Source of the DNA: Haloarcula rubra
GTDB lineage: Archaea > Halobacteriota > Halobacteria > Halobacteriales > Haloarculaceae
Direction of reading: 5' to 3'
NCBI RefSeq assembly: GCF_019599465.1
Contig: NZ_RKLR01000021.1
Coordinates: forward strand, 1 to 32,764
DNA length: 32,764 bases
In this document: piece after piece, positions 5,771-23,158 of the stretch
How the letters are laid out: every line of letters begins with the position of its first letter
Position numbering within the stretch: position 1 is the first letter of the stretch
Program-made: the position numbers and the translations under genes
Notes under the pieces: model-generated
Seen by the model: only the letters and a program-made list of their open reading frames with translations
Database searches by the model: none
What the model was told of the DNA's origin: nothing

Positions 5771-6409
5771 TTAACTTTGGCATCGGTTCCACCAGACAGC
5801 GAAGGATTCGAGCCTGGATTCAGCTGTCGACGGCTCGACGTGACTAAACGTATTTGCAAACGAGGAGGCTCGTCGTTTTACCTCACGAAAGATATGTTCG
5901 ACGCTGTTGCGATTTCCGTGGCGACGTATATGAAATTGGAGGCCGAGTCGTGAGAGTGCGTCTTTGAGGTGGGCGGCGTCGTCGATGAAAAACGTCGTAT
6001 CGCCGATGTCGTGTTTCTCGCGGAGTTCACGCAGAAACACGTATGTAAGTCCTGAATTCGTGTTCGGAAACAGCCGTACGTGCAGAAATTCGTTAGTCGT
6101 GGGATCGACCGCTGCGTACAGCCAGTAGCGGTCGGTCCCGATCTGAATTACGGTTTCGTCGACCGTAACGTAATTCGACGATCTCGTGCCGGTCCGCTGT
6201 AGATCGGCCTTCTGCACCCAGTTATGGATGGCGGCTCGACTGCGTTGGACACCCAACCTTTCAAGATGCTGTTTGGTATTCGAAAGTGACAAACCAGCCA
6301 AGTGGAGTCGAATACCCATTTCAATGATTTGCTCGGGTGTCCGTTCTCGGTCCACAAAATCCAAATCAACCCACTCGTTATCCTCGCTGAGGCGGTCGAT
6401 TTCGGACAT
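5771..6409 (-). CDS. IS6-type DDE transposase
   Basis: Transposase of 212 residues, the usual size for haloarchaeal IS6-type elements. It has an N-terminal helix-turn-helix (about 25-68, LHLAGLSLSNTKQHLERLG and AAIHNWVQKA) and a DDE catalytic core: D84 in VDETVIQIG, D143/D144 in FIDDAAHL and E171 in SVEHIFREVK. I chose ATG 6409; the frame is open to 6565 but that part looks unlike transposase. The C-terminus ends in VWWNRC. I could not find convincing terminal inverted repeats between 5690-5770 and 6410-6570, so the element may be a remnant. Its sequence differs clearly from the other IS6-type enzyme at 13213. Confidence 0.85.
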   Translation of the reverse strand: MSEIDRLSEDNEWVDLDFVDRERTPEQIIEMGIRLHLAGLSLSNTKQHLERLGVQRSRAAIHNWVQKADLQRTGTRSSNYVTVDETVIQIGTDRYWLYAAVDPTTNEFLHVRLFPNTNSGLTYVFLRELREKHDIGDTTFFIDDAAHLKDALSRLGLQFHIRRHGNRNSVEHIFREVKRRASSFANTFSHVEPSTAESRLESFAVWWNRCQS

Positions 6410-6670
6410 AGAAATTCGAAACACCGGCCACCTCATCCTTATCTTAACACGACGCCGTAACACGGGTGAAGAGATAAATTCCAAATGCCACACCGGATTT
6501 GTCACTTCGATTTTTACGACGATAACGTAGTCGTGACACTCCCGTCTAAAGAAACTACAGAGCATTGAAGTCTTGAATCTCGTCTTCCGACACCGCGACG
6601 AGAGAAACCTATCGACCAGTAGCGGACTGAGAGTTTGAATGTAATAAATAGAACGGAAATTGGCTAACAG

Positions 6671-7417
6671 TCACAAAATAAGGCCGTCGTCAACGCGAAC
6701 AACCTCGCCGTTGATATACCCCGCGTCATCGCTGGCTAAGAAGGCCACAACAGCAGCGACTTCTGCTGGAGTGGCCACACGCCCACTTGCAGCATTGGAT
6801 TCAACGACGGACTCGTAGCCTTCCAATTCGTCGAGCAAGTCAGTGTCTGTGTATCCCGGTGCCACGGCATTCACTCGGATGTCTTTACCGCCCAGCTCGC
6901 GGGCGGCCGATCGGGTAAACCCGAGGACACCGGCCTTGCTGGCGGCGTAGTTGGCCTGACCGGTCTGACCGCACTGAGCAGCGATACTGGCGACGTTGAC
7001 GATCCGGCCGTCCTGATCGGTGTGCCGAAGCATTTGTTTGGCCGCTTCTCGCGTGCAGTAGAACGTTCCCGTGAGGTTGACATCAATGACGCGCCGCCAC
7101 TGCTCGGGTGTCATACGAAGCAGCAGGCCATTGTTGACTGTTCCTGCGTTGTTGACGAGCACGGTTGGGGCGCCGTATCGCTCGGTGATGGTTTCGAACG
7201 TCGCCGCCACGGCATCGTAATCAGTGACGTCAAACTGCTCGACAGCTGTCTCGCTCTCGAATTTGGCCAACTCGGTTGCCGTCTGCTCGGCCGCCGCCTC
7301 GTTCTCGTGGTAGGTAGCGATGACAGTCGCGCCCAGTTTGGCCAACCGCTCCGTCACAGCACGCCCGATCCCTCGCGTCCCGCCGGTGACGACTGCGACT
7401 TGGCCGTTGAAATCCAT
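6671..7417 (-). CDS. fabG: 3-oxoacyl-ACP reductase-like SDR (FabG)
   Basis: Short-chain dehydrogenase that in a FAS cycle reduces 3-oxoacyl-ACP to 3-hydroxyacyl-ACP with NAD(P)H. The 248 residues show the Rossmann glycine motif TGGTRGIG (11-18), NNAG (89-92) and the catalytic tetrad N114, S144, Y157 and K161 (YAASK). The ATG overlaps the stop of the fabD-like gene (TAATG at 7415-7419), so the two are translationally linked. It is the last gene of the operon. Many haloarchaea carry FabG-like SDRs for PHA or other uses; the ACP, ketosynthase and acyltransferase next door are what point to an ACP-bound substrate here. Confidence 0.88.
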   Translation of the reverse strand: MDFNGQVAVVTGGTRGIGRAVTERLAKLGATVIATYHENEAAAEQTATELAKFESETAVEQFDVTDYDAVAATFETITERYGAPTVLVNNAGTVNNGLLLRMTPEQWRRVIDVNLTGTFYCTREAAKQMLRHTDQDGRIVNVASIAAQCGQTGQANYAASKAGVLGFTRSAARELGGKDIRVNAVAPGYTDTDLLDELEGYESVVESNAASGRVATPAEVAAVVAFLASDDAGYINGEVVRVDDGLIL

Positions 7418-8364
7418 TACGCGAAAGCCTCCCGAGCGTCCGAAGGCGTCTCAAGAGTGATACAGTCGGCTTGCGGCGCGATGCGCTCGACAAGATTCGA
7501 TAGCACTCCCGCGGGCGGGAACTCGACGAACCGTTCGATACCCTGTTCGCGGAGTTGCTCGACGGCGCGTACCCAGTCGACGGACGACGTAACCTGGGTC
7601 GTCAGATCCCGGCGTGCGACGTTTGGGTCCGTGTACGTGTCTCCGGTCACATCAGAGACGATGGGGACCCTGGCTTCACGAATCGTCACTTCGGTCATCG
7701 CGTCCTCTACACAGTCGACCGCCGATGCCATCACCGGCGAGTGAAACGCCCCGCCGACATCTAGCTCCCGGAAACGGGTTCGCGTTCGTTCCTCAAGCGT
7801 CGCTCGGACCGACGCTACACCCTCAGTGGTACCGCTGATGACAGTCTGTTTCGGCGCGTTATAGAGGGCCACACCTACGTCGTCGCGGGCAGCGCACGCG
7901 TCTTCAACTGTCTCCGGATCGGACAGCAACACTGAAATCATCGTCCCTGGTCCGTCGGTGGCCGCCGCCCGCTCCATACATCGTCCCCGCTCGTGGGTGA
8001 GAGAGGCTGTCGCTACGGGGTCCAAAGCATCCGAAGCAGCTAGTGCGGAAAAGTGGCCGAGGCTGTGGCCGGCCATGAGCGCCGGCTTGACGCCGAAGCG
8101 CATCCGTACCGCCTCGTAGACCGAAACTCCAGTCGTCAGTAACAGCGGCTGGGTGTTGCTCACTCGTCGTATCTCCGCTTCAGTCCCGTCGAAACACATC
8201 TCCCGGAGATCGATATCGATCGCGGCGTCGAGTCGATCGAACGTCGTACGCATCTCGGGCCAGTTGTCGTAGAACGCCCGCCCCATACCGGCAGTCTGAC
8301 TTCCCTGTCCGGGAAAGAGGAATGCGGTCCCGTCGAGTGTCACCGGTGGTCCCTCGGTGGACAT
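7417..8364 (-). CDS. fabD: Malonyl-CoA:ACP transacylase-like protein (FabD)
   Basis: Acyltransferase that moves malonyl (or another acyl) groups from CoA to ACP. The 315 residues fit FabD length. Motifs are FPGQGSQ (17-23), the nucleophile elbow GHSLG with S101, a conserved Arg in the HERGRCM stretch (about 126) and the catalytic His in FHSP (H208). Substrate choice is not certain: FabD usually has GHSLGE, and here the residue after GHSLG is His. The gene starts 26 nt after the acpS-like stop and its own stop overlaps the fabG start. With the ketosynthase it could supply extender units to the ACP. Confidence 0.9.
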   Translation of the reverse strand: MSTEGPPVTLDGTAFLFPGQGSQTAGMGRAFYDNWPEMRTTFDRLDAAIDIDLREMCFDGTEAEIRRVSNTQPLLLTTGVSVYEAVRMRFGVKPALMAGHSLGHFSALAASDALDPVATASLTHERGRCMERAAATDGPGTMISVLLSDPETVEDACAARDDVGVALYNAPKQTVISGTTEGVASVRATLEERTRTRFRELDVGGAFHSPVMASAVDCVEDAMTEVTIREARVPIVSDVTGDTYTDPNVARRDLTTQVTSSVDWVRAVEQLREQGIERFVEFPPAGVLSNLVERIAPQADCITLETPSDAREAFA

Positions 8365-8390: not shown

Positions 8391-8849
8391 TTAGTCGTGT
8401 CGACTCGCTGCGCTCACGACGGTCACCGATCCGACGGCGTAGCCAGCAGTTCGGTCGTGACTGAGACTGACGTCGATGTCGGCCGTTTCGAGCGATGTCC
8501 CCAGTTCGTCAAGTGTTTCCCCGAGAGCCTCGGACGCAGCGGGCGCTAGCGAGAGCCGCGGTCCATTATTCCGCCGGTCAATTTCGATTGCTACGATTGG
8601 GACGCCGGGTGCTGGGTCGGTCAGCGTCTTCAGGAACGCTTCCTTGGCTGCCCAGCGGGCGGCGTAATGCTGTGGTGGGAAGCCCTGCGCGTCACAGTAC
8701 GCTTGCTCGGCTGGAGTGAACACCCGGTCCCGAAACGAGGTACCGAACTCATCGAGGAGATCGCCGATTCTGGGTATAGACACCACGTCGATGCCGTGAC
8801 TGACAGCAGATCCGACGTCAATGTCAGGTGCATCTGGTTCCCCGGTCAC
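8391..8849 (-). CDS. acpS: Holo-ACP synthase (AcpS-type phosphopantetheinyl transferase)
   Basis: Transfers 4'-phosphopantetheine from CoA to the serine of ACP. The 152-residue protein shows HGIDVVSIPRI (Asp at 21), FTPAEQAYC (44-52), ARWAAKEAFLKTL (64-76, with metal-binding E70) and the closing strand VSLSHDRTAGYAVGSVTV. It is about 20-30 residues longer than bacterial AcpS, mostly an acidic N-terminal tail. The start overlaps the ketosynthase stop (ATGA at 8846-8849). Its presence shows that the ACP in this operon is meant to be modified, so the cluster is self-sufficient for carrier activation. Confidence 0.88.
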   Translation of the reverse strand: MTGEPDAPDIDVGSAVSHGIDVVSIPRIGDLLDEFGTSFRDRVFTPAEQAYCDAQGFPPQHYAARWAAKEAFLKTLTDPAPGVPIVAIEIDRRNNGPRLSLAPAASEALGETLDELGTSLETADIDVSLSHDRTAGYAVGSVTVVSAASRHD

Positions 8850-10069
8850 GGTTGCTCGAGTACGAGTGCGCCGTTCGTACCGCCAAAGCCGGCAGACGTA
8901 CTCACCACGACATCTATTTCATTTTTACGTGTCTCAGTAACGACTGGCACATTGCAATCTGGGTCGGGCGTCTCGTAATTCGCTGTCGGTGGGACGATGC
9001 CCTTTGAGATAGTCTGTGCGACGACGGCGGCTTCGATGGCACCAGCGGCGCCGAGCGTATGGCCGATTTGACCTTTAATACTCGTCACCGGGGGGGTCGA
9101 CGTGGATGCGAACACCGACTCGAGGGCCTCGGCCTCTCGGGCGTCACCGACGGATGTACTTGTCGCGTGGGCGTTGACGTGGTCGACAGCGGTGGGCTCG
9201 TAATTAGCTTCAGACAGCGCTTGCTCGACACAGCGACGGAGCCCATCGCCTGATTCAGTCGGCCGCGTGGGATGGTGGGCGTCGCCGGTCCAGCCGGCCC
9301 CGGAGACGGCAGCGTACGGCGTCGCCCCGCGTTCACGAGCGTGGTCCCGTGCCTCGAGCACAACAATGCCGCTACCTTCAGCAAGAACTAATCCATCTCT
9401 ATCGGCGTCGAAGGGACGGCTCGCGGCTTCGGGGTCGTCCGTGCGCGAGCTGAGTGCACGCATCGCTTCGAAGCTCCCGACTCCGAGCGGTGATATCGCG
9501 GCGTCGGTCCCCCCGGCCACGGCAACGTCGGCCCGTCCACGACGGATATCGTCGGTTGCGGCCCCAATGGCGTGTGTCCCCGCTGAACAGGCCGTCCCCG
9601 GCGCACGGTTCGGCCCTCTTGCGTCGATGCAGATGCTGACGTGGCCAGCCGCGAGATTCGTCAGTGCGGTCACGAGGAATGAAGGTGATGGGCGGTCGCC
9701 AGCTGCGGCTTCGACCTCGGAGAGCCCGGCCAAACCCGATCCGATGCTGGTACCGACCCGATCGGAATTCCAAGCCGGGGAGATGGGGTCGAAACCAGCG
9801 TCGTCAAGTGCTTCGGCGGCGGCAGTGACGGCGAACTGTGCGTACCGACCCATGGTCCGGTCGTCAACGAGGATGTCCGTGTTGATGACACCGGTGTCTG
9901 TCCCCACCTCGCCGGCAATGTCAGTCCGCAGGCCAGCCTCGTCGGGATCGAACTGCGTTATCGGTCCACACCCTGAGGCCCCGTCGACGAGGCCGTTCCA
10001 AGTGCTCTCGGTCGTCTGCCCGAGCGGCGTCACCAGTCCGAGGCCGGTTACGACGACGTCCCGACCCAT
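8846..10069 (-). CDS. fabF: Beta-ketoacyl-ACP synthase, FabF (KAS II) type
   Basis: Condensing enzyme that elongates acyl-ACP with malonyl-ACP. From ATG 10069 it has 407 residues, normal for FabF. The catalytic Cys-His-His set is visible: C161 in TACSAG, H301 in NAHATSTSVGD and H337 in GHTLGAAGAIEA, with K332 before it. The N-terminus VVVTGLGLVTPLG and the C-terminal AGFGGTNGALV are typical. A GTG at 10108 is also in frame, but using it would overlap the ACP gene by 38 nt; ATG 10069 begins one base after the ACP stop. FabF needs a primed acyl-ACP, so where the starter comes from is open. Confidence 0.92.
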   Translation of the reverse strand: MGRDVVVTGLGLVTPLGQTTESTWNGLVDGASGCGPITQFDPDEAGLRTDIAGEVGTDTGVINTDILVDDRTMGRYAQFAVTAAAEALDDAGFDPISPAWNSDRVGTSIGSGLAGLSEVEAAAGDRPSPSFLVTALTNLAAGHVSICIDARGPNRAPGTACSAGTHAIGAATDDIRRGRADVAVAGGTDAAISPLGVGSFEAMRALSSRTDDPEAASRPFDADRDGLVLAEGSGIVVLEARDHARERGATPYAAVSGAGWTGDAHHPTRPTESGDGLRRCVEQALSEANYEPTAVDHVNAHATSTSVGDAREAEALESVFASTSTPPVTSIKGQIGHTLGAAGAIEAAVVAQTISKGIVPPTANYETPDPDCNVPVVTETRKNEIDVVVSTSAGFGGTNGALVLEQP

Positions 10070-10070: not shown

Positions 10071-10316
10071 TCAGGCGCGCTCGACAACGTACGATCGGAG
10101 GTCACCAACTGTTTCTATTTCTTCGAGATCCTCGTCGGGGACGTGAACGCCGATATCGGCTTCGACAGCCTCAGCGACCTCGACCATGTCTAATGATTCA
10201 GCGTTGAGAGCCTCTCCGTCGAAGCGCGTCTCGTCGTTGAGCGCTTCCTGTCCAACGCGCAGCCTGTCTGCGACGATGCTTTCGACACGGGCGCCAACAT
10301 CCTGGTTATCAGACAT
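10071..10316 (-). CDS. acpP: Acyl carrier protein
   Basis: An 81-residue acidic four-helix carrier protein. The phosphopantetheine attachment serine is S41 in NAESLDMVE, where most ACPs have DSLD; the Asp before the Ser is Glu here. The segment before it (FDGEALNAESLD) is organised differently from the common FxxDLGADSLD. Helix 3 and the C-terminal helix (IETVGDLRSYV) are typical. The frame is open to 10343, but ATG 10316 (MSDNQDVGARVESIVADRL) fits the family. It lies 67 nt after the MDR gene and one base before the ketosynthase. ACPs are rare in archaea, so this gene largely defines the cluster as unusual. Confidence 0.9.
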   Translation of the reverse strand: MSDNQDVGARVESIVADRLRVGQEALNDETRFDGEALNAESLDMVEVAEAVEADIGVHVPDEDLEEIETVGDLRSYVVERA

Positions 10317-10383: not shown

Positions 10384-11355
10384 TCAGGGGACGAGGACCA
10401 CTTTGCCCGTAGTCTCTCTGTTGGCGAGGGCATCATGGGCCTGCTGGGGTTCGCCCAGTGGAAGTGTTCGGTCGACGACGACCTCAACCGAGCCAGACCG
10501 TAGATGCCGGGTCAGGGATGGTACGGCGCTCAGCACCCGCTCGGGGACATGGGCGAGCGCGTGTTCGAGATGGTAACCTAAGAGCGACTGGTTCTCGAAG
10601 AACAGACGTGGCGTCGCAACGGTCGGGACAGACCCACTGGCCATTCCGAACGAAACGATACGCCCGGCCGGAGCAAGCGCCTCGACGCCCGCAGCAAAGG
10701 CGTCGCCACCGACGCCATCGAGGACGAGGTCGACGCCCTCGCCGTCGGTTCGCGTCAGCAGGGTGTCGGCCACGTCTGTTTCCGTGTAGTCGAGAGCGTG
10801 GTCGGCACCGAGATCGAGGGTCTGCTCGCGTTTCGCTTCGGTGCTCGCGGTGGTGTACACGGTGGCCACAGCCGCATCTGCCAGTTGGACGGCGAGCGAA
10901 CCGACGCCGCCCGCTCCGGCGTGGACTAGGACCCGATCGTCCGCCGACAGACCGCCCCACTCGTGAAGAACGTTGTGGGCGGTCAATCCTTGGACTGGCA
11001 GCGCGGTCGCTTCGGCCCAGGAGAGCGACTCGGGTATCGGGAACGTGTGTTGGACTGGCGCTGTCGCGACCGTCGCGTACCCACCGCTCGAGGTGAGCGC
11101 GGCGACCCGATCGCCGGCTTCGATATCACTCTCCGAGGGCGCCTCTGTGACAATTCCAGCGACCTCTAAGCCAGGGACGAACGGTGGTGACGGCCCACCG
11201 GGGTAGTTCCCTTTGCGCTGTTCGACATCAGCGAAGTTGACGCCTGCCGCTTCGACGTTGATACTGACCTCGTCTGGGGCCCGTGTCGGCGCTGGTCGCT
11301 CAGTGACTGTCAGGACCGAACTATCGCCGTACTCGGGAACTACAATGGCCTGCAT
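10384..11355 (-). CDS. Zinc-independent MDR oxidoreductase (quinone/enoyl reductase-like)
   Basis: Medium-chain dehydrogenase/reductase of 323 residues. It has the GroES-like N-terminal fold (AAGVNFADVEQRKGNYPG, 37-54), PGLEVAG (61-67) where zinc alcohol dehydrogenases carry GHE, and the NADPH site AGAGGVGSLAVQ (146-157). No catalytic or structural zinc cysteines are present, which places it with quinone oxidoreductases and with the enoyl-reductase domains of polyketide and fatty acid synthases. Given its place, two bases after the R2lox-like gene and just before ACP, an enoyl-thioester reductase role is a reasonable inference, though the operon has no dehydratase to make an enoyl substrate. 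A decayed relative lies near 29603-29945. Confidence 0.87.
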   Translation of the reverse strand: MQAIVVPEYGDSSVLTVTERPAPTRAPDEVSINVEAAGVNFADVEQRKGNYPGGPSPPFVPGLEVAGIVTEAPSESDIEAGDRVAALTSSGGYATVATAPVQHTFPIPESLSWAEATALPVQGLTAHNVLHEWGGLSADDRVLVHAGAGGVGSLAVQLADAAVATVYTTASTEAKREQTLDLGADHALDYTETDVADTLLTRTDGEGVDLVLDGVGGDAFAAGVEALAPAGRIVSFGMASGSVPTVATPRLFFENQSLLGYHLEHALAHVPERVLSAVPSLTRHLRSGSVEVVVDRTLPLGEPQQAHDALANRETTGKVVLVP

Positions 11356-11357: not shown

Positions 11358-12212
11358 TTACTCTCCAACCGTCCGTTCAGGATCGTTTCCGTCAGGTAGC
11401 TGTTGTAGTCGGTCTCGGCGTTGCTGACCGGCGAATGCCGAGAGGTCTTCACTGTCGGGCCCGGGGAGGTGCTTCCAGCCCATGGTCTCGACGACGGCGT
11501 CGACCGGGTCGGCGAGGTCTGCGACTGTTGCCTCGATAAGTGAACGGTCGATGTCCTCGTTGCGTAAGAGGTCCGCGAGTCGGTCCATCCCGTATCCGAC
11601 GTGTCGCCCCTCGTCCCGTCGTACAGCGGTAGTTCCCTCAACGAGGCCCGAGAGCGACGGGCCATCCGTTCTAGGCCCGAAGGTTGCTTCTATAGCGTGG
11701 AAGCCGGTCTGGCCGAGAACGCCCTCTACCGTCAAGTGGTAGTGACAGTACGCTCTGGCGCGGTTTGCGGGCGTGTCCGCGTCCAACAGTCTGCGCATCG
11801 CTCTCGCGGTCCGGTCGAACACCGACTCATACGGTTCCGAGAACCATCGGTCAGCGGTCGGCAGTGTCGGGTCCATCTCCCGAGCAATCTCTGCCGGTTC
11901 GATTGCCAGGCTCCAGTAGCGATCGAAAAACGCGGCGTGCTTGGCCTCCTCGTACATGTGGTTGGCGACGAACCGCTGGTCGCTCTCCCCGTCGATGATC
12001 GCAGCTAGTGAGGTGAGTTCCTCTGTCACGTTCTCCTCACCCGCACCGAACATGGCGACCAATGCGCGCACCTGGGTGAATGCACGTCGGCTGAGTCCGG
12101 TGAGGGTATCTATATCTGCCGCTAAGTCGAGTTCATACGGGTTCCAGTGATTCACGACTGCGTGTCTGAAGTACCGCATTGCTCTGTCCTCGTTCTCGGC
12201 TGTCATGCTCAT
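11358..12212 (-). CDS. R2lox-like ferritin-fold di-metal oxidase
   Basis: A 284-residue ferritin-like protein of the ribonucleotide-reductase R2 superfamily. Six metal ligands can be assigned: E59, E89 and H92 (EEAKH), E163, E201 and H204 (DEGRH). V62 lies three residues after E59 and Y158 five before E163. This matches R2-like ligand-binding oxidases, where that Val and Tyr form an ether cross-link next to an Mn/Fe site that binds a long-chain fatty acid. The R2lox match is from remembered residue spacing and is an inference, but an acyl-binding oxidase heading an ACP/ketosynthase operon makes good sense. Alternatives are an acyl-ACP desaturase-like or AurF-like oxygenase. The start may be ATG 12212 or the in-frame ATG 12206. 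Confidence 0.82.
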   Translation of the reverse strand: MSMTAENEDRAMRYFRHAVVNHWNPYELDLAADIDTLTGLSRRAFTQVRALVAMFGAGEENVTEELTSLAAIIDGESDQRFVANHMYEEAKHAAFFDRYWSLAIEPAEIAREMDPTLPTADRWFSEPYESVFDRTARAMRRLLDADTPANRARAYCHYHLTVEGVLGQTGFHAIEATFGPRTDGPSLSGLVEGTTAVRRDEGRHVGYGMDRLADLLRNEDIDRSLIEATVADLADPVDAVVETMGWKHLPGPDSEDLSAFAGQQRRDRLQQLPDGNDPERTVGE

Positions 12213-13173: not shown

Positions 13174-13904
13174 GGCACCGTCTAGTTAAGGAACGAACAG
13201 GTCGAAGAGTGAGTGATTCATGCTACCTCAGACCTGCTCAAGGAGAGTTTGGACACCGCTACGCTTGAATGTTGGCAGCGGGAGCGAACGGCGACGCCCG
13301 TCAGGGCGTTCGCCGTTCGTCTCCATGCTGCAGGTCTTTCACTTCGAGAGACAGAAGCGATTCTTCGGCTTCTCGGCATAAATCGCTCGTTTCAAGCGAT
13401 CTGGCAGTGGGTACATCGTCTCTCTGACAGCCTGCCAGACCCGCCGAAGGCGAAGCCGAGGCGGGTCGCCGTCGACGAGACGGCTGTCAAAATCAATGGG
13501 GAACAGTCGTGGCTGTACGCTGCAATAGACCTCGACACAAAGCTGATCTTGGATATCGCTCTGTTCAGCCGACATGGCACCGATCCGGCAGCTGCGTTTC
13601 TTCGTGCAGTCACCGAGAAACACGACTGCTCGGAAGCAGTGTTTCTCACAGATGCTTTCGGCTATCGGACTGCCATCTTTCGATTAGGACTCAACGGTCA
13701 GGTCGATTACACCGACCGAAACCTGATCGAAAAGTGGTTTCAGACCTTCAAAATGCGAGTCGACCGTTTCCATCATTCGTGGGTGGGCAGTCGGCTGAGC
13801 GTCCGCCAGTGGCTTGCAGTGTTTGTTCATTACTACAATTGTCAGCGACCGCATCAGGCGTTGAATGATCGAACACCAGCTTAGGAGGCTATCTAGACAG
13901 TGCC
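13174..13904 (+). mobile_element. IS6-type insertion sequence, 731 bp
   Basis: GGCACCGTCTAG at 13174-13185 matches the reverse complement of CTAGACAGTGCC at 13893-13904 at 11 of 12 positions. These terminal repeats enclose a single transposase gene, the normal IS6 plan. The eight bases on either side (GGGGCTTC and TCGGGATA) are not direct repeats, so the element may have recombined since insertion. Confidence 0.7.
13213..13884 (+). CDS. IS6-type DDE transposase, slightly shortened
   Basis: A 223-residue transposase with an N-terminal helix-turn-helix (about 35-70, LHAAGLSLRETEAILRLLG) and a DDE core: D88 in VAVDETAVKI, D147 in FLTDAFGY and E173 in NLIEKWFQTFK. The C-terminal YYNCQRPHQALNDRTPA is typical. 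The GTG at 13213 is the likely start. The stop TAG directly after TPA is followed in frame by GAG GCT ATC TAG; homologs usually end in PAEE-like residues, so a GAG to TAG change probably removed the last few residues. That loss need not inactivate the enzyme. It belongs to the element bounded at 13174 and 13904. Confidence 0.87.
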   Translation: MIHATSDLLKESLDTATLECWQRERTATPVRAFAVRLHAAGLSLRETEAILRLLGINRSFQAIWQWVHRLSDSLPDPPKAKPRRVAVDETAVKINGEQSWLYAAIDLDTKLILDIALFSRHGTDPAAAFLRAVTEKHDCSEAVFLTDAFGYRTAIFRLGLNGQVDYTDRNLIEKWFQTFKMRVDRFHHSWVGSRLSVRQWLAVFVHYYNCQRPHQALNDRTPA

Positions 13905-14217: not shown

Positions 14218-14967
14218 TCAGATGCGGCTGTTTTTGATACTTTGTTCGATATTGTCGACTGCCTCCTGAAGACGATCCGCGATAATCTCGTCGTCAGGAA
14301 GCCTGTACGGTGGGCCGGAAATATCCAGTGTGCCGAAAAGGTCGCCGTTGGGTTTGTTGATTGCGACTGCAACCGCTCTGAGCCCCTCTAACTCCTCCTG
14401 CTTATTCACCGCATACCCCTGTTCCCTGATTTGCTGGATCTCGTGGAACAACCTGCTTCTGCTGGCTATCGTGTTGCCAGTGTGCTTTTTCAGACCGCGT
14501 TTGTCAATGATATCTCGTATTCGCTCGTCACTAAACTCCGCTAATGCCGCTTTCCCACAGGCTGAACTGTGCATATTGAAGTATCGCCCCACCTGGAACC
14601 CCTCCTCTGATGGTGCGGTAATCTCATCGTAGATGATAATCATACGACCGTTCTCTTCGACCGCGAAGCTAACCTCTTCTCCAACTCTGTTAGACAGTTG
14701 CCAAGCTTCTTCCTTCGCTATTTGATACCGTTCGTCGCGTCTACGTGCCTTTTCACCGAGATGAAACATCTTCATCCCCAGACGGTATTCACTATTCTTT
14801 TTTTGAAGGTACTCGTTCTGTTTCAGTGTCTGGAGGTGTGTATGGAGCGTACTGGTCGGAATATCGGTATAATCGGAAATTTCTGTTAGACTTGCACTGT
14901 CCAACTCTCCGACTGCCTCTATGATCTCCATCGAAGTTTTCGACGTTTTCCGCGATTGTTTTCCCAT
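14218..14967 (-). CDS. IclR-family transcriptional regulator
   Basis: A 249-residue regulator with an N-terminal winged helix-turn-helix (about 8-60: TSMEIIEAVGELDSASLTEI, then SDYTDIPTSTLHTHLQTL and YRLGMKMFHLGE) and a C-terminal effector-binding domain (about 80-245) with the usual SACGKAALAEF and YAVNKQEELEGLRAVAV segments. Archaeal and bacterial IclR proteins control catabolic operons. ATG 14967 fits the family; the frame runs on to 15000 without purpose. The start codon lies inside a near-palindrome, suggesting autoregulation. Divergent from ilvA and near the gcv genes, it probably controls the glycine/serine/threonine module or the amidohydrolase operon further right; the ligand cannot be read from sequence. 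Confidence 0.9.
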   Translation of the reverse strand: MGKQSRKTSKTSMEIIEAVGELDSASLTEISDYTDIPTSTLHTHLQTLKQNEYLQKKNSEYRLGMKMFHLGEKARRRDERYQIAKEEAWQLSNRVGEEVSFAVEENGRMIIIYDEITAPSEEGFQVGRYFNMHSSACGKAALAEFSDERIRDIIDKRGLKKHTGNTIASRSRLFHEIQQIREQGYAVNKQEELEGLRAVAVAINKPNGDLFGTLDISGPPYRLPDDEIIADRLQEAVDNIEQSIKNSRI

Positions 14968-14978
14968 ATTAGGAAATA
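14958..14978. promoter_or_regulatory. Candidate IclR operator, copy 3, over the regulator start
   Basis: TTTTCCCATATTAGGAAATA (14959-14978) has TTTCC/GGAAA arms and contains the regulator's own ATG (14965-14967, minus strand). A protein bound here would block its leaderless transcript, as expected for autoregulation. Confidence 0.45.
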
Positions 14979-15108
14979 CAGCGTCAGGATAAAAAAACAA
15001 CCGGTGTCATAGCTAACCGATCCCACTGGTCAGCACCGAATATTCCTCTGTATTTTGAACTGCTATCTATGCCTATGGATGCGAGGAATCCAACCCCGGC
15101 CACCAGTA

Positions 15109-15118
15109 CTTATAAAAT
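15109..15118 (+). promoter_or_regulatory. TATA-like box before ilvA
   Basis: CTTATAAAAT gives an expected transcription start near 15140 and so a leader of about 70 nt to the ATG at 15210. It lies in the 242-nt divergent gap with the IclR gene. Confidence 0.4.
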
Positions 15119-15209
15119 GGCTCGCATGATCGTTGCACATGATCGGTCGGCTACTGCGTGGTTTACCGATAGGAATCATTCGGAAGCCGACCACCGGTCC
15201 AAGAGAACC

Positions 15210-16433
15210 ATGTCCATAGAATTCGACGACATTCAGCGAGCGCAGGACCGTCTTGATACCGAATCGGTTGCCAGAGAGACACCGATCGAGACGAGCCGCA
15301 CATTAGATCGCGACACTGACGCTCGGGTATTCCTCAAAATGGAGCACCTCCAGCGATCCGGCTCGTTCAAGACACGGGGAGCGTACAACAAACTGTCTAA
15401 GATTGCAGATGACGACGATGGAGCGGCCGTCGACAGAGCGATCGCTGCCAGCGCTGGCAACCACGCGCAGGGCGTCGCACTGGCTGCAGCGAAGACCGGG
15501 CTCGAGGCCACCATCGTCATGCCGACGAACGCACCACAATCGAAGATTGACGCGACGCGGGGCTACGGTGCCGATGTCGAACTCCGCGGTAAGAACTTCC
15601 AAGCAGCAATGGACTATGCCCAGTCGCTAGTCGACGATAGCGCAGTCTTCGTGCACGCATACGATGACCCTGATATCGTTGCTGGTCAAGGGACACTCGG
15701 CCTCGAAGTACTCGATCAGGTCCCGGATCTCGACACGGTCGTCGTACCGATTGGCGGGGGCGGACTGATCGGTGGCGTCGCAGCGGCTCTCGCTGAACTG
15801 GCTCCCTCTGTCCGTGTTATCGGCGTTCAGGCCGAAGACGCAGCGACCGTCCCACAAAGCCTCCAAAAGGGTGCCCCACAGACAATCGATTCGGTTCAAA
15901 CGATCGCTGATGGGATCGCGACAGGCGGCATCTCCACGCTCACGTACAACCTCATTGACCAGCATGTCGACGAGGTGGTGACAGTCTCGGATACGGAGAT
16001 CGCACATAGCATCCGCTATCTCCTAGAACGGACCAAGCAGATGGTCGAGGGTGCCGGAGCCGCGACCGTAGCGGCGCTCCTGAGCGACCGGCTCGCCGTC
16101 AGTGATGAGACGGTTGTTCCGATTCTCAGCGGCGGGAATCTCAGCGCGACGATGCTTCAGCGGACACTCACACACGAGCTTACCTATCGACAGCAACTCG
16201 TCCAGCTCCGGGTCCGAATCGTCGATGAGCCTGGGAAGATGGGCCGCATCTCAAACATCATCGCCGACCAGAACGCCAATATCCGGACCGTGAACCACGA
16301 ACGAGCTGTCGACGAGCTGAAGGTCGGCGAGGCGTATCTCGACATCCGGATCGAGACGAGTGGCGACCGACATACCCAACGCATCATCCAATCGATCGGT
16401 GATGCAGGCTACGAGGTCTCCCGTCTCAACTGA
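15210..16433 (+). CDS. ilvA: Threonine ammonia-lyase (PLP) with C-terminal ACT domain
   Basis: Converts threonine (and serine) to 2-oxobutyrate (pyruvate) and ammonia. From ATG 15210 it has 407 residues. The PLP lysine is K54 in GSFKTRGA; SAGNHAQGVA, the phosphate-binding IGGGGLIGG and LSGGNLSATML follow in fold-type II order. The C-terminal ACT domain (about 330-407, QLVQLRVRIVDEPGKMGRIS) suggests allosteric control by an amino acid. The frame is open back to 15069, but the MSIEFDDIQRA start fits homologs. It lies between the divergent IclR gene and the gcv genes. Catabolic TdcB-type use fits the surroundings as well as isoleucine synthesis does. RidA, encoded nearby, acts on the enamine this reaction releases. 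Confidence 0.93.
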   Translation: MSIEFDDIQRAQDRLDTESVARETPIETSRTLDRDTDARVFLKMEHLQRSGSFKTRGAYNKLSKIADDDDGAAVDRAIAASAGNHAQGVALAAAKTGLEATIVMPTNAPQSKIDATRGYGADVELRGKNFQAAMDYAQSLVDDSAVFVHAYDDPDIVAGQGTLGLEVLDQVPDLDTVVVPIGGGGLIGGVAAALAELAPSVRVIGVQAEDAATVPQSLQKGAPQTIDSVQTIADGIATGGISTLTYNLIDQHVDEVVTVSDTEIAHSIRYLLERTKQMVEGAGAATVAALLSDRLAVSDETVVPILSGGNLSATMLQRTLTHELTYRQQLVQLRVRIVDEPGKMGRISNIIADQNANIRTVNHERAVDELKVGEAYLDIRIETSGDRHTQRIIQSIGDAGYEVSRLN

Positions 16434-16535
16434 TGTGCGCTATGAAGTCTCTGGATCGAACCACGCTGTCACGCGTCGCAACATCGCACCAATTCCCGGC
16501 TCGTCGTGGTACATCCGGGATCGTGTCACGATAAG

Positions 16536-16544
16536 CTATATATT
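16536..16544 (+). promoter_or_regulatory. TATA-like box before gcvT
   Basis: CTATATATT stands 23-31 nt before the GTG at 16567, placing the transcription start essentially at the start codon (leaderless). Confidence 0.5.
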
Positions 16545-16566
16545 GCTCCAGAAGAGCATCTAATGC

Positions 16567-17658
16567 GTGTCGACCAAAAGGCCACAGCTTCACGAGAAGC
16601 ATTTGCAGTCCGGGGCCGACTTCACTGACTTCGGCGGCTGGGATATGCCGGTCTCGTTCGACTCGATACAGACCGAGCATGCTGCGGTTCGTGACTCAGT
16701 CGGTATCTTCGACGTTAGTCACATGGGTGAAGTTACGGTTTCCGGTCCGGAAGCTGCAGAACTGATGAATCGGCTTACGACCAACGACGTGACCGCGCTT
16801 GATCCAGGGGACGCTCAATACGCCTGCATCCTAGCTGAGGACGGGACGATTATTGACGACACTGTCGTTTATTTTCAGCCTGATGGCGAAGAATACCTTT
16901 TCATCCCCAACGCCGGAAATGACGAGGCGATGGTCGACCACTGGACCGACCACGCGGCGGCACACAACCTTGACGCAACTGTTGTGAACCGGACCCAGGA
17001 TTTCGGGATGTTCGCCGTGCAGGGCCCAGACGCTGTCGAGTCCGTTCAGGCGGCTGCGGCCGATTCCCTTGAGGATGTGTCCCGGTTCAGTACCCGCGAA
17101 ACAAGGATCGATGGCGCTGACTGTCTCGCTGCTCGGACCGGCTACACCGGTGAGGACGGCTTCGAACTGATCTTCGACGCCGATGACTCCGAGAAGATAT
17201 GGGATGCGTTCGACGACGTACAGCCTTGCGGGCTCGGAGCGCGAGACACGCTCAGGCTTGAGGCCGGACTGCTGCTCTCCGGACAGGACTTCCACCCGGA
17301 GGACGAACCGCGCACGCCCTACGAGGCGCGACTGGGATTCGTCGTCGATAGCTCGAAGCCGTTCTTCGTCGGCCAGGAGGCACTTCGCGACGCGGACAAC
17401 CCCGACGAACTGCTCGTCGGGCTGGAGTTGCAGGAACGAGGGGTCCCGCGCCACGGGTATCCGATTCTGCACGATGGGGAGCAGGTCGGCCACGTAACCA
17501 GTGGGACGATGAGCCCGACGCTTGAGGTACCAATCGCACTCGGCTATGTCGATGCCGCGTACGTCGATGAAGGGACCTCACTTGGCGTCGAGGTACGCAA
17601 TAGGACGGTGGCGGCGACGGTTGTAAGCCACCGATTCCTCCAAGAGCATCGCGAGTGA
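16567..17658 (+). CDS. gcvT: Glycine cleavage system T protein (aminomethyltransferase)
   Basis: Transfers the methylene carbon from aminomethyl-lipoyl-GcvH to tetrahydrofolate and releases ammonia. The 363 residues match GcvT length: the N-terminal folate-binding part has DFGGWDMPVSF and FDVSHMGEVTVSG, then the TNDV and QYACILAEDGTIIDD segments; GARDTLRLEAGLLLSGQD (about 225-242) is the family signature. The start is GTG 16567 (MSTKRPQLHEKHLQ). An ATG at 16563 is out of frame and leads to a 17-codon dead end. First gene of gcvT-gcvH-gcvPA-gcvPB, with 27 nt to gcvH. Confidence 0.95.
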   Translation: MSTKRPQLHEKHLQSGADFTDFGGWDMPVSFDSIQTEHAAVRDSVGIFDVSHMGEVTVSGPEAAELMNRLTTNDVTALDPGDAQYACILAEDGTIIDDTVVYFQPDGEEYLFIPNAGNDEAMVDHWTDHAAAHNLDATVVNRTQDFGMFAVQGPDAVESVQAAAADSLEDVSRFSTRETRIDGADCLAARTGYTGEDGFELIFDADDSEKIWDAFDDVQPCGLGARDTLRLEAGLLLSGQDFHPEDEPRTPYEARLGFVVDSSKPFFVGQEALRDADNPDELLVGLELQERGVPRHGYPILHDGEQVGHVTSGTMSPTLEVPIALGYVDAAYVDEGTSLGVEVRNRTVAATVVSHRFLQEHRE

Positions 17659-17685
17659 ACTACCAACGAATCACGAACACTACCA

Positions 17686-18069
17686 ATGGAATTTGACGTA
17701 CCTGACGAACCGTACTATACCGAATCGCACGAGTGGATCGAACTAATCGAAGATACGGTGAGGATCGGGATCACCGACTTTGCACAGGACGAACTCGGTG
17801 ACATCGTCTTCGTGGAACTGCCGGCTGCCGGCACCGATTTCGACGCTGGCGACGACTTTGCGGTCATCGAGAGTATCAAGGCTGTTTCCGATGTCTACGC
17901 CCCGGTTGCTGGCGTCGTCGCAGACATCAATGAGGCCGTGGAGTCCGAGCCCGAACTCGTCAACGAGGACCCTTACGGTGACGGCTGGCTGATTGAACTG
18001 GAACTCGATGGGGACCTCGATACAGAGTCATTCCTGTCAGCCAGCGAATATCGAGAGCAGATCGAATAA
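17686..18069 (+). CDS. gcvH: Glycine cleavage system H protein (lipoyl carrier)
   Basis: Lipoylated carrier that shuttles the aminomethyl group between the P, T and L proteins. At 127 residues it has the usual length. The lipoylation site is K65 in [14 protein letters not shown], preceded by HEWIE (15-19) and GDIVFVELP (38-46), with [15 protein letters not shown] in the C-terminal part. It must carry lipoate, and a lipoyl synthase is encoded about 6 kb downstream. The spacings to gcvT (27 nt) and gcvPA (19 nt) indicate one operon. Confidence 0.96.
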
Positions 18070-18088
18070 TCAGACGGAGCAAACAGCA

Positions 18089-19450
18089 ATGTCACAGCAA
18101 TTCCAAGACAAGAAAAGCGAGTCCCGATCTACGGAGAGTCCCTTTGCACCACACACCGAAGAGGACGTCCAGGCGATGCTCGACGCCATTGGCGCCGAGT
18201 CAGTTGAGGACCTGTTCGACGTCCCATCGTCGGTTCAGTTCGACGGGTCGTTTGGGATCGAGTCGTCGTCGGAGCAGGAAGTGGTCCGAGACGTATCGGA
18301 CACGCTTGCACGAAACGACCAACTTACCGAGTTCCTCGGTCGCGGCCGGTACGAACACTACGTGCCATCGATCATCGATAACCTCTCGTTGCGCTCGGAA
18401 TTCCTTACGAGTTACACACAGTACCAGCCTGAGATCGCTCAAGGGTTCCTGCAGGCGTTGTTCGAGTATCAGTCGATGCTGGTTGAACTCACCGGCCTTG
18501 AGGTCGCGAACTGCTCGATGTATGACGCGGCGACGGCACTGGCCGAAGCAGCGCTGTTGGCTGACCGAGTCCGTGGAACGAGCGGTTCGAAAGTACTGGT
18601 CTCAGACCTCGTTCGTGAAGAGCGTCTCTCGGTCCTCGAGAACTATCTTATTGGTAGCGATATGACGGTCGAAACGTACCCCACTGTGGACGGGGCAACC
18701 GATCCGACAGCGCTCGCCGACAACGTCACCGACGAGACGGTGATGATATACGTTGAGAATCCCACGGCTGTTGGCACCATTGAGGAGAACCTCTCAACGG
18801 TCGGCGATATCGCAGAGGAGCATGACGCCGCCTTCTGCTTAGGGACCGATCCCGTCGCGCTTGCACTGCTCGAGGAACCGTCTAATGTCGGCGCAGATGT
18901 AGTCGTCGGCGACGCAAGTGCCCTCGGACTGTCACCTGCCTACGGGTTAGGCCTCGGCCTCTTCGCCTGCCGCGAAGACTACCTCCGGCAAGTACCAGGA
19001 CGGCTCGTCGGTGCGAGCGAAGACGCGAACGACAACCGAGCCTACACACTAACACTGCAGACCCGAGAACAACATATCCGCCGAGAGCGGGCCACCTCCA
19101 ATATCTGCACCAACCAGGCGTGGGTCGCTCTGCGAACCGCGATTCACGTCGCCTGGCTCGGCGCGACCGGGCTCGTCGATTTGGCCGAGGAGTGCGTCCA
19201 ACTCCCCCGAGAACTGGCGGCCGATCTTAATGACATCGATGGCGTCACTGCGCCGGTCCACGACCGGCACCACTTCCGTGAGTTCCTCGCTGAGACGCCC
19301 CGGGACGCTGAGCGGGTCGCAGCTGACCTCGAAAGCAACGGATTCGCGGTTCACGCCGTCGACGAACACCAGGTCCAGGTCTGTATCACCGACGCGAACC
19401 GGTCTGAGCGGGATGAGTTCGTGGAGGCTGTCAGGGAGGTGGTGGCCTGA
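18089..19450 (+). CDS. gcvPA: Glycine dehydrogenase (decarboxylating) subunit 1
   Basis: N-terminal half of the split P protein, which decarboxylates glycine with PLP. From ATG 18089 it has 453 residues. Family segments are [18 protein letters not shown], the [20 protein letters not shown] region, [12 protein letters not shown] and [14 protein letters not shown]. It works as a heterodimer with the next gene, which carries the PLP lysine. The start follows a CGGAG-like ribosome site (18074-18078). The frame is open back into gcvH, but that part is not protein-like. The stop TGA overlaps the ATG of gcvPB by one base. Confidence 0.95.
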
Positions 19451-20874
19451 TGCAGCGCTACAATCAGGCCGTCTGGAGTGAGACGGACGACTCTCGCTAC
19501 GAGACCCTACTCGCAGAAAAGAACGAGCAGACAGTCGACGTTGAGGAGCGAACCACACTTCCCGACGAGTTAACTCGCGAATCGGTGACGCTCCCGGAGC
19601 TCTCGGAACCCGAGATTGCGCGCCATTACACGCGCCTATCCCAGATGAATTACGGCGTCGAGAGCGGGCCGTTCCCGCTGGGGTCCTGTACGATGAAGTA
19701 TAACCCCAAGTTCACCGAAGAGGTTGCCGCGCTCGCCGACGCGGCCGTTCACCCGGACAGATCTGCTGAGAGTACTCAGGGCACACTCGCGGTGTATGCC
19801 CGTTTGCAGGACTACCTCGGGCGGATTGGTGGGATGGACGCAGTAACACTCCAGCCGCCCGCCGGCGCATCTGGCGAGTTCACTGGCATTCTCGTCGCTA
19901 GGGCCTACCACGAACACAACGACGAGGGGAACCGCAGCAAGGTTATCGTCCCCGCAAGTGCCCATGGTACGAACTTCGCGAGCGCAGTGATGGCAGGATA
20001 TGAGGTGGTTGAACTCCCGCCGAGTGACGATGGACGGGTTGATATCGATGCACTGGAAGCGGCTGTCGGCGATGATACGGCGGCACTGATGCTGACGAAC
20101 CCTAACACGCTGGGGCTGTTCGAGCGCGATATTGAGGAGATCGCTGAGATCGTCCACGATGCAGGCGGGCTCCTGTACTACGACGGGGCGAATCTGAACG
20201 CGCTGCTGGGCCAGGCCCGGCCAGGCGACATGGGGTTCGACATCATGCACTTCAATCTGCACAAAACCTTCGCCACTCCCCACGGCGGTGGTGGGCCTGG
20301 AGCCGGTCCAATCGGTGTTACAGCTGATCTGGCCGAATTCCTTCCCTCCCCGCACGTGCGGGCCGACGGCGAGAGCTACGAGTTGTACGAGCCCGAACGC
20401 TCGATTGGTAAGGTTCACGGCGCGATGGGGAACTGGCTCGTCCTACTGAAAGCCTACGCCTACATCGAGCGGCTTGGTGACGAAGGACTCACAGACACGA
20501 GTGCGAAGGCGGTACTGAACGCGAATTATCTCGGATCGCAGATCGACCTCGACATACCCTTCGGACCATTCCACCACGAGTTCGTCGCTAGCGCTGGCGA
20601 CCGCGACGCCGCCGACTTCGCGAAGCGAATGCTCGATTACGGGGTCCACCCGCCGACGACAAAGTGGCCGGAAATTGTTTCCGAGGCCCTCATGACAGAA
20701 CCGACGGAGATGGAAAGTCAAGATACCCTCGACCAACTCGCCGATGCGTTCAATGCGGTAGCAGGAGAGAACGAGGAGTCGCTGTCGACGGCGCCGTCGT
20801 CAACGGCAGCCCGCCGCATCGATCAGACAAGCGCTGCCCGAAACCCGCGTCTCTCCTGGCACGCGCTCGAGTGA
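19450..20874 (+). CDS. gcvPB: Glycine dehydrogenase (decarboxylating) subunit 2
   Basis: PLP-carrying half of the split P protein, 474 residues. It has PLGSCTMKYNPKF (76-88), AHGTNFASAVMAGYE (171-185), YYDGANLNALLG (243-254) and the PLP lysine K272 in FNLHKTFATPHGGGGPGAGP. The start overlaps the gcvPA stop (TGATG), typical of coupled translation of an obligate heterodimer. The C-terminal tail after about 445 is Ser/Ala-rich and likely unstructured. It completes P, T and H; the L protein gene follows after 147 nt. Confidence 0.95.
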   Translation: MQRYNQAVWSETDDSRYETLLAEKNEQTVDVEERTTLPDELTRESVTLPELSEPEIARHYTRLSQMNYGVESGPFPLGSCTMKYNPKFTEEVAALADAAVHPDRSAESTQGTLAVYARLQDYLGRIGGMDAVTLQPPAGASGEFTGILVARAYHEHNDEGNRSKVIVPASAHGTNFASAVMAGYEVVELPPSDDGRVDIDALEAAVGDDTAALMLTNPNTLGLFERDIEEIAEIVHDAGGLLYYDGANLNALLGQARPGDMGFDIMHFNLHKTFATPHGGGGPGAGPIGVTADLAEFLPSPHVRADGESYELYEPERSIGKVHGAMGNWLVLLKAYAYIERLGDEGLTDTSAKAVLNANYLGSQIDLDIPFGPFHHEFVASAGDRDAADFAKRMLDYGVHPPTTKWPEIVSEALMTEPTEMESQDTLDQLADAFNAVAGENEESLSTAPSSTAARRIDQTSAARNPRLSWHALE

Positions 20875-21021
20875 GCCGCGGCTCTAAGGCTTTCCTGTCA
20901 AGGTCGTGCCGGTGATCCGGCTCGCTCTTTCACAGCACTGCGTTTATTCTGCCCCCCTCCAGCTCGACGGGGAAGTATTAACACGAGGCGGCCGAGAGTG
21001 TTCGAGGAGGTCAGCATACCC

Positions 21022-22440
21022 ATGCAAGAGACAGACGTACTTGTCATCGGCGGCGGTCCCGCAGGCTATGTCACAGCCATCCGTGCGGGACAGCTCGGCC
21101 AAACCGTCACTCTCGTCGATCGGAGTGGTGTTGGCGGAACGTGTCTGAACCACGGCTGTATCCCTTCTAAGGCGCTGATCGACGCAGCTGACGATGTCCA
21201 CTCGATCCGAAACGTAGAGGATCGAGGTATCGAGGCAGATGTTGCGGTCGACTTCGCGCGTCTCGTTCAATGGAAGGATCGCGTTGTTCGGCGGCTCACA
21301 AAGGGTGTTGAGAAGCTCTGTAAGGCCAATGACGTTACACTACGCAAGGGAACGGCCCAACTGGTCGCCGAGCACCGCGCAGAGGTCTGGGAGGATGGGA
21401 ACGGAGAGCCCGAAACGATCGCGTTCGACCACGCCATTGTCGCTACCGGGAGCAGACCGATCGAACTCCCCGGATTCTCGTTCGACGACGAACCGATTCT
21501 GAACGCGAAGGCGGCGCTCGATCTCGATGCGATTCCTGATGAACTCGCGGTCGTCGGTGCGGGTTATATCGGGATGGAACTGTCGACGATGTTCGCCAAA
21601 CTTGGTGTGGACGTGACCGTCGTCGAGATGTTGGAAGCGCCGCTGCCGCGGTACTCGGCTGATTTAACTCAGCCGGTGCGAAAACGGGCCGAGAAGCTCG
21701 GGTTGTCTTTTCAGTTCGGTCGCGTCGCAACAGACTGGGAGCGAATCGACAATGGGCAGATACGGATCGCCACCGAACCTGCTGGGGACGAAACAGGCGA
21801 GGACGCGGTCGAATGGCTAACAGCCGATAAGGCGTTGATCGCGATCGGTCGTGATCCGGTCTCCGACACAGCAGGGATTGACGCACTTGGGATCGAGTGC
21901 GACGAAAATGGATTTGTCGAAACGGACGAACTCGGACGAACGAATATCGATCATATCTTCGCCGTGGGTGACGTTGCAGGCGAACCAATGCTTGCCCACG
22001 AGGGAAGCGCTGCGGGCGTCGTTGCAGCCGAGACGATTGCAGGTGCGGCGCCCGACCCAGTCCGCACCGTTCCGAGTGTCGTGTTCACTGATCCCGAGAT
22101 CGGGTCTGTTGGGTTGACCGAAACCCAGGCGCGGGAACAGGGCTACGAACCTACTACTGGCGAGTTCCCGTTCCGAGCGAGCGGGCGAGCGTTGACGTCT
22201 GGAGAGCGGACGGGGTTTGTGAGACTCGTCGCTGACGTCGAGTCTGGGACCGTCCTAGGCGGACAGATTGTCGGCCCCGAGGCATCCGAGTTAACTGCCG
22301 AGATTGGACTCGCCGTCGAGCATGAACTGACACTCTCGGACATCGCTTCGACCGTCCACGCGCATCCCACGCTCTCTGAAGCGATCATGGAAGCGGCCGA
22401 CTGCGCGCTTGGCCATCCGATCCATACATTGGATCGGTAA
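21022..22440 (+). CDS. lpdA: Dihydrolipoyl dehydrogenase (L protein)
   Basis: FAD enzyme that reoxidises dihydrolipoyl-GcvH with NAD+. From ATG 21022 it has 472 residues. Visible features are the FAD motif VIGGGPAGY (8-16), the redox disulfide GGTCLNHGCIPSK with C41 and C46, the NAD motif VVGAGYIGMEL (about 182-192), the second FAD motif INHIFAVGD-like NIDHIFAVGDV (about 313-323) and the active-site HAHPTLSEAIMEA at the C-terminus. A GAGGAGG ribosome site (21004-21010) supports this start. It could also serve 2-oxoacid dehydrogenases, but its place directly after gcvPB suggests dedication to glycine cleavage. The 147-nt gap may hold its own promoter (GTATTAACAC near 20975). Confidence 0.95.
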   Translation: MQETDVLVIGGGPAGYVTAIRAGQLGQTVTLVDRSGVGGTCLNHGCIPSKALIDAADDVHSIRNVEDRGIEADVAVDFARLVQWKDRVVRRLTKGVEKLCKANDVTLRKGTAQLVAEHRAEVWEDGNGEPETIAFDHAIVATGSRPIELPGFSFDDEPILNAKAALDLDAIPDELAVVGAGYIGMELSTMFAKLGVDVTVVEMLEAPLPRYSADLTQPVRKRAEKLGLSFQFGRVATDWERIDNGQIRIATEPAGDETGEDAVEWLTADKALIAIGRDPVSDTAGIDALGIECDENGFVETDELGRTNIDHIFAVGDVAGEPMLAHEGSAAGVVAAETIAGAAPDPVRTVPSVVFTDPEIGSVGLTETQAREQGYEPTTGEFPFRASGRALTSGERTGFVRLVADVESGTVLGGQIVGPEASELTAEIGLAVEHELTLSDIASTVHAHPTLSEAIMEAADCALGHPIHTLDR

Positions 22441-22598
22441 TTGGTTCGTTCAGTGACTCAAGCCACGAACGAGAGTTCTTTTCGCGAGCAGTCCAACGCA
22501 GGTCACTGTAGGCCGGGGACACGGTACCGCCGTCTGCTGCAGTACCGCTGTCCTGTCGACTCAAAATCGCAGTCTGTGATCGGTTGGGGGATGTCGCC

Positions 22599-22976
22599 TT
22601 ACTGGCCAGCGATGGCTTCGATCTCGACACCGACGCCTTTCGGGAGTTCGCTGACACCAACGGCGCTACGGGCGGGAGGTTCGTCGTCAAAGTAACCGCT
22701 GTACACCTCGTTCATTGCCTCGAAATTGCCGATGTCGTCGAGAAAGACGGTTACTTTGAGGACATGGTTCATCGCCAGTCCTGCCTCGGCTAGTACCGCT
22801 TCCACGTTATCGAGCGCCTGTTCGGTTTGTCTGGTGATCGGCGCGTCGTCCAATAGATCACCGTCAGGTGTCGCAGGGATCTGTCCGGCGGTAAATACCA
22901 TATCGTCGTGTTTGGTCGCTTGGCTGTACGCACCGACCGCTGCCGGCGCTTCGGCTGTCTCTATGGTTCGCACCAT
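22599..22976 (-). CDS. ridA: RidA family reactive enamine/imine deaminase
   Basis: A 125-residue trimeric-type RidA protein. It hydrolyses reactive 2-aminoacrylate and 2-aminocrotonate released by PLP-dependent serine/threonine dehydratases, protecting other PLP enzymes such as serine hydroxymethyltransferase. The signature residues are present: Y17/S18 in GAYSQA, R103 in PPARSAVGV and E120 in VGVEIEAIA. ATG 22976 fits the family and has a TATA-like box at 23001-23010. It is transcribed against its neighbours lpdA and glyA, yet lies within the module containing its expected source (IlvA) and its expected targets (GlyA, GcvP). The 158-nt convergent gap to lpdA (22441-22598) holds nothing else. 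Confidence 0.93.
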   Translation of the reverse strand: MVRTIETAEAPAAVGAYSQATKHDDMVFTAGQIPATPDGDLLDDAPITRQTEQALDNVEAVLAEAGLAMNHVLKVTVFLDDIGNFEAMNEVYSGYFDDEPPARSAVGVSELPKGVGVEIEAIAGQ

Positions 22977-23000
22977 ACACCAACCACTCCAGCCCATCGA

Positions 23001-23010
23001 CTTAAAATAT
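23001..23010 (-). promoter_or_regulatory. TATA-like box before ridA
   Basis: On the minus strand ATATTTTAAG lies 25-34 nt before the ATG at 22976, fitting a leaderless transcript. Confidence 0.45.
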
Positions 23011-23134: not shown

Positions 23135-23158
23135 ACTAGTGGTGATAACTGAACACGT

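Follow-up and report, generated by a model that had tools for sequence, protein, structure and literature searches.

A divergent R2-like ligand-binding oxidase encoded at the head of a FAS-like operon in haloarchaea

R2-like ligand-binding oxidases (R2lox) form a family whose natural substrate has been unsettled since it was described. The DNA analysed here, a stretch of 32,764 nucleotides from Haloarcula rubra (hereafter the window), carries a genuine R2lox gene as the first of seven genes in an operon that also encodes an acyl carrier protein (ACP), a ketosynthase (KS), a malonyl transferase (MAT), a ketoacyl reductase (KR), a phosphopantetheinyl transferase (AcpS) and a reductase of the MDR family. 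Such company names a testable class of substrate and, because the order of the operon is kept in 11 genomes from three families, a carrier-bound acyl chain is the best candidate substrate for the R2lox of this operon clade. The proposal that the protein is a two-electron oxidase of an ACP-bound acyl chain, putatively with a Mn/Fe site, strikes us as evenly balanced between right and wrong. Archaeal membrane lipids are isoprenoid ethers, and the association bears on the role of FAS-like genes in archaea. No report of R2lox together with FAS genes was found in the R2lox or haloarchaeal FAS literature, in a search that covered mainly open-access papers.

The plus strand of the R2lox interval is rich in stop codons, and the real open reading frame lies on the minus strand (Table 1). 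An earlier note on this DNA had read in its product the six-ligand pattern of R2 proteins (E59, E89, H92, E163, E201 and H204) and the pair of residues that forms the R2lox cross-link, V62 at E+3 and Y158 at E-5, and both are present exactly as stated. E59, V62, E89 and H92 align with E69, V72, E102 and H105 of Geobacillus kaustophilus R2loxI, and Y158, E163, E201 and H204 with Y162, E167, E202 and H205, residues whose roles as ligands or cross-link partners are described for that protein (PMC6060897). With the ligands in the R2 order E/E/H/E/E/H, all eight columns are invariant across 42 related sequences whose identity falls to 26%, so that the residue pattern cannot be ascribed to chance.

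Searches of profiles and folds lead to the same family. Against solved structures, phmmer matched R2lox at an E-value of 8e-18 and RNR R2 chains at 0.48 or worse, and a 14-sequence profile run against the PDB matched R2lox at 5e-35 to 6e-26 and RNR R2 at 1e-7 or worse. The R2lox equivalogs of NCBIfam (NF006198-NF006202) were the best matches but scored under their cut-off (109 versus 194 bits), as expected of a divergent branch. Mean pLDDT of the AlphaFold model is 93 and, among the chains listed by the fold search, its nearest neighbours are solved R2lox structures (Z 30.6-34.0), with RNR R2 at 27.6 or lower. RNR R2 subunits, those of class Ic included, share the fold and the ligand set, but are the weaker match by both profile and fold (Z under 28), and a mis-called RNR R2 is rejected on these grounds. 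A Pfam scan returned PF00268 as its sole match and none to the AurF or acyl-ACP desaturase families (E-values up to 10 were requested, HMMER filters dropping most matches above 0.1); on this ground an AurF or desaturase identity was set aside, the fold search listing top chains only. Ligands, Val/Tyr pair, profiles, predicted fold and tree therefore agree with the earlier assignment, and the protein is a genuine R2lox with a ferritin fold and a dinuclear site. Of the outcomes that the note had named as refuting, membership of an AurF or desaturase family did not appear, and V62 and Y158 match the cross-linked pair in sequence alignment, the model superposing on solved R2lox chains at Z about 33. 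It shares ligands, Val/Tyr pair and fold (Z about 33) with G. kaustophilus R2loxI (PDB 4HR0) and Mycobacterium tuberculosis R2lox (3EE4), but is only 20-25% identical to them and carries Phe at the Tyr175 position and Gly at that of Ala171.

Table 1. Coordinates of the R2lox operon and of key R2lox codons in the window
Feature	Position	Strand	Basis
R2lox, 284 aa, operon gene 1	11358..12212	-	ORF, residues, profile, fold
Codons from metal ligand E59 to V62, valine of the cross-link pair	12027..12038	-	sequence; invariant, n=42
Codons E89 to H92, metal ligands, ExxH	11937..11948	-	sequence; invariant, n=42
Codons from Y158, tyrosine of the cross-link pair, to metal ligand E163	11724..11741	-	sequence; invariant, n=42
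Codons E201 to H204, metal ligands, ExxH	11601..11612	-	sequence; invariant, n=42
Codons G167 to F171, at the G. kaustophilus Ala171/Tyr175 positions, ligand channel	11700..11714	-	alignment; roles PMC4118035, PMC6399176
NADPH oxidoreductase of the MDR family, 323 aa, 2 bp past R2lox stop; candidate trans-acting enoyl reductase	10384..11355	-	
Acyl carrier protein, 81 aa, Ser-Leu-Asp attachment motif	10071..10316	-	
FabF-type ketosynthase, 407 aa, Cys-His-His motifs	8846..10069	-	
AcpS-type phosphopantetheinyl transferase, 152 aa	8391..8849	-	
FabD-type malonyl transferase (MAT), 315 aa, GHSLG motif	7417..8364	-	
FabG-type ketoacyl reductase (KR), 248 aa	6671..7417	-	

The operon reads R2lox-MDR-ACP-KS-AcpS-MAT-KR, entirely on the minus strand, with intergenic gaps of -4 to 67 bp. 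It holds the type II FAS set of ACP, KS, MAT, KR and AcpS, catalytic motifs having been checked in the first four; in the window the expected motifs are present in KS, MAT, KR, ACP and MDR, the MDR pattern finding no match at loci L095 and L096. The MDR protein is related to quinone reductases and also to PKS ER domains. The operon has no FabA/FabZ dehydratase and none was found across the whole genome, so that the set is called FAS-like, being incomplete as encoded here; eight MaoC-type matches above cut-off lie elsewhere in the genome. Carboxyltransferase genes that could supply malonyl-CoA are also present, as is a single ACP_syn_III_C match, either FabH-like or an HMG-CoA synthase. The missing dehydratase, the patchy distribution of the KS (16 of 391 haloarchaea) and the possession of a dedicated AcpS would all suit a specialised, polyketide-like product of which R2lox would be the tailoring oxidase. 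We hold this to be improbable, since the KS is FabF-like, passing the curated cut-off of one FabF subfamily model (PRK07314) and having FabF proteins as its nearest solved structures, and the operon lacks genes for a chain-length factor to partner the KS, for a cyclase or for any further tailoring enzyme.

The complete seven-gene operon occurs in identical order in 11 genomes of the Haloarculaceae, Natrialbaceae and Haloferacaceae; the genomic link to an ACP and ketosynthase set, which the earlier note had raised as a hint to an acyl substrate, is therefore real. Besides the window, the carriers are Haloarcula pellucida, Haloarcula amylovorans, Natronolimnohabitans sp. A-GB9, Natronorubrum bangense, Haloferax mediterranei, Natrinema limicola, two strains of N. 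hispanicum, Haloterrigena sp. H1 and genome G291. Genes were called with a codon-score caller, as calling by longest ORF was misled by antisense ORFs. Only 1-2 bp lie between the R2lox and MDR genes where these do not overlap, the 14 bp overlap at L096 depending on the called start (a 1 bp gap in the record's own annotation). The association may go back to a single ancestral event spread by transfer, and the 11 genomes are accordingly not 11 independent observations. In Natronorubrum bangense, seemingly the same operon region lies on chromosome and plasmid (L096, L097), through either duplication or an assembly artefact.

In the window the operon is bracketed by IS6-family transposases (5771-6565, minus strand; 13213-13884, plus strand), which suggests that it can move as a unit. 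Such transposases occur near other loci too, and several copies of the operon are carried on plasmids. R2lox might then be a stress protein, or one that handles metal or oxygen, which merely travels in a mobile gene block and has no metabolic tie to the FAS-like genes. However, gene order and R2lox-MDR spacing are fixed in the 11 genomes amid unrelated flanking genes, which vary between genera. Operon decay, furthermore, retains R2lox in Halostella pelagica (L032:7787-8992), where MDR and the C-terminal portion of KR make up a single in-frame fusion, with R2lox adjacent; this fusion is the scar of a deletion from ACP to MAT. Genome G301 retains R2lox and MAT. Other loci are rearranged: in Haloterrigena turkmenica and KLK7 a set of R2lox, MDR, ACP', a KS fragment and KR diverges from ACP-KS-AcpS-MAT, in G029 R2lox-MDR is separate from ACP-KS-AcpS-MAT-KR, and in Natrinema sp. 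SYSU A 869 the R2lox and KS frames are broken and MAT is joined to KR. Finally, the linked R2lox proteins form one clade. Fixed order and spacing, co-retention and common descent argue for a functional tie, and we consider passive carriage in a mobile block quite improbable.

The linkage is also specific. Among the 391 haloarchaea sampled, 185 have an R2lox-like match, about 132 of these being strong by our count, whereas a FabF-type KS match is confined to the 16 genomes mentioned above. R2lox is found in 13 of these 16 KS genomes against about 132 of 391 overall (Fisher p 1e-4, kinship ignored), and lies within 10 kb at 7 of 18 KS loci where about 0.1 would be expected, kinship again ignored. 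The clade of FAS-linked R2lox has support of 99/97, or 93/83 under wider sampling, whereas no KS, ACP or MAT was found within 8 kb of unlinked haloarchaeal R2lox at 12 loci. On the KS tree, three changes are needed to explain R2lox linkage among the KS lineages. FAS-like loci without R2lox also exist in haloarchaea, so R2lox is not required for chain building. A second KS set of this kind (L071-L080) is mostly arranged as ACP-KS-AcpS-MAT-KR, in some cases beside an MDR gene.

The operon clade differs from characterised R2lox in the ligand channel. Tyr175 of G. kaustophilus, at E+8, is a conserved cavity residue for which a possible part in substrate oxidation has been proposed (PMC4118035); its counterpart in the window is Phe171, and Phe is found in 13 of 13 operon-clade proteins. 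Ala171, which opens the ligand channel of R2lox where RNR R2 has Phe (PMC6399176), corresponds to Gly167, and the clade has Gly in 11 and Ala in 2 of 13 proteins, always a small residue and never the Phe of RNR. In contrast, the unlinked haloarchaeal R2lox compared, mostly 41-48% identical and including the paralogue G000:C31:330286, have the same eight residues but keep Ala and Tyr in the channel, and the flanks of the 12 loci inspected are free of FAS genes. Both residues are likewise kept by the sister forms of G181, G197 and G029, and Tyr is also found at the Tyr175 position in Geobacillus, Rhodococcus and Neobacillus R2lox. A distant R2-like protein (L119, about 25% identical) has Phe there too, so that the Y175F change is not unique within the superfamily. 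The operon clade is thus an R2lox variant without the second cavity tyrosine of the characterised type, for which characterised R2lox may be an incomplete guide to chemistry. The two substitutions, Y175F and A171G, let the tuning of R2lox chemistry be studied by comparing channels that differ naturally. Tentatively, and with more doubt than we attach to an acyl-ACP substrate as such, the clade could represent a new class of Mn/Fe oxidase that depends on a carrier protein, a branch of R2lox that has lost this tyrosine and is dedicated to acyl-ACP in an archaeal FAS-like pathway; haloarchaea would then make, with O2, an oxidised acyl product of a kind not known from Archaea. A docking patch for ACP was also sought; the basic residues R42 and R80 are clade-specific but seemingly lie at opposite ends of the bundle, and no claim is made for them.

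Known R2lox of G. kaustophilus and M. tuberculosis hold a long-chain fatty acid on their metals (PMC6060897), as the earlier note had said; its statement that the substrate is unknown no longer stands in full, since alkane use was reported in 2024 (PMC10867098). In that work lysates with G. kaustophilus R2loxI, the gene for which lies in a beta-oxidation cluster, consumed C10-C22 alkanes, which would favour R2lox acting as a monooxygenase on a substrate not bound to ACP, such as a free fatty acid, an alkane or some other product after its release, the operon supplying or recycling the molecule. The evidence is thin, however, coming from crude lysates and with an E202A/H205A mutant that retained most of the activity (PMC10867098). 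Gene neighbourhoods elsewhere point the same way: an adenylate-forming enzyme near Geobacillus R2lox, an alcohol dehydrogenase and an oxidoreductase/ferredoxin pair near that of Rhodococcus, and enoyl-CoA hydratase or AMP-binding genes near some haloarchaeal R2lox. On a Rhodococcus opacus plasmid (L116), R2lox has the alcohol dehydrogenase on one side and, on the other, the NAD(P)/FAD oxidoreductase with its ferredoxin, an arrangement as for a monooxygenase. Whereas Geobacillus R2lox lies near alkane and beta-oxidation genes, that of the window lies near FAS-like ones: the genes of the operon are biosynthetic, with no acyl-CoA ligase, beta-oxidation enzyme or thioesterase among them, and its R2lox clade stands apart from unlinked R2lox with an altered ligand channel. 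A free substrate is accordingly unlikely for the operon clade, though it deserves serious consideration.

Beside the operon in the window lies, at 14218-29445, a block of IclR-IlvA-GcvT-GcvH-GcvPA-GcvPB-Lpd-GlyA-LipA-PdxS, a membrane pair and M20. In Haloterrigena turkmenica, KLK7 and G243, too, parts of this block adjoin FAS-like genes (identity up to 91% in G243). The operon could then make octanoyl-ACP for LipA and the adjoining glycine cleavage H protein, with R2lox as an accessory oxidase. In all four genomes the FAS-like genes lie beside the glycine cleavage block and two lipA copies are present, one lying within the block itself in both the window and G243, but at a distance of about 13 kb in Haloterrigena turkmenica and KLK7. 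Yet 365 of 391 genomes have lipA while 16 have the KS, which means that lipoylation can do without the operon, and lipoate was rejected as its driver and kept solely as a rival account. Furthermore, no glycine cleavage genes occur in the flanks read at seven further loci of the operon, L033-L036, L095, L096 and that of Haloferax mediterranei, and G243 carries operon and block without R2lox. A role in lipoate supply is therefore very improbable.

For the preferred reading, oxidation of an acyl chain on ACP, the gene set could build and reduce such a chain provided that a dehydratase acts in trans. AcpS would arm ACP, MAT would load malonyl, KS would lengthen the chain and KR would reduce the keto group; water would be taken out by a hydratase whose gene lies outside the operon, probably one of MaoC type, and the enoyl reductase may be the MDR protein. 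R2lox, its translation probably coupled to that of MDR, would carry the putative V62-Y158 cross-link and Mn/Fe loading, and its dinuclear site would activate O2 for a two-electron oxidation, a desaturation or hydroxylation of the chain on ACP or during release. Stearoyl-ACP desaturase, AurF/CmlI and CmlA are dimetal oxidases, several of which act on carrier-bound substrates, and they offer a precedent for the proposed reaction through likeness of role only. A desaturase role for R2lox has itself been proposed on theoretical grounds (PMC4118035).

The operon encodes no electron donor of its own. At L095:9613-9948 and L096:9328-9663, R2lox is closely preceded, in the same orientation, by a gene for a 111-aa [2Fe-2S] ferredoxin, accompanied by a divergent geranylgeranyl reductase gene, and this upstream ferredoxin, a possible electron donor, is confined to the Natronorubrum and Natronolimnohabitans operon loci. 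Haloferax mediterranei, also a carrier of the operon and with E6P09_RS15840 as its R2lox gene, has been used in published CRISPR-interference work (PMC8387396); there, a phaC gene (L104:8309-10009) is found on the upstream side of the R2lox operon, about 2 kb away.
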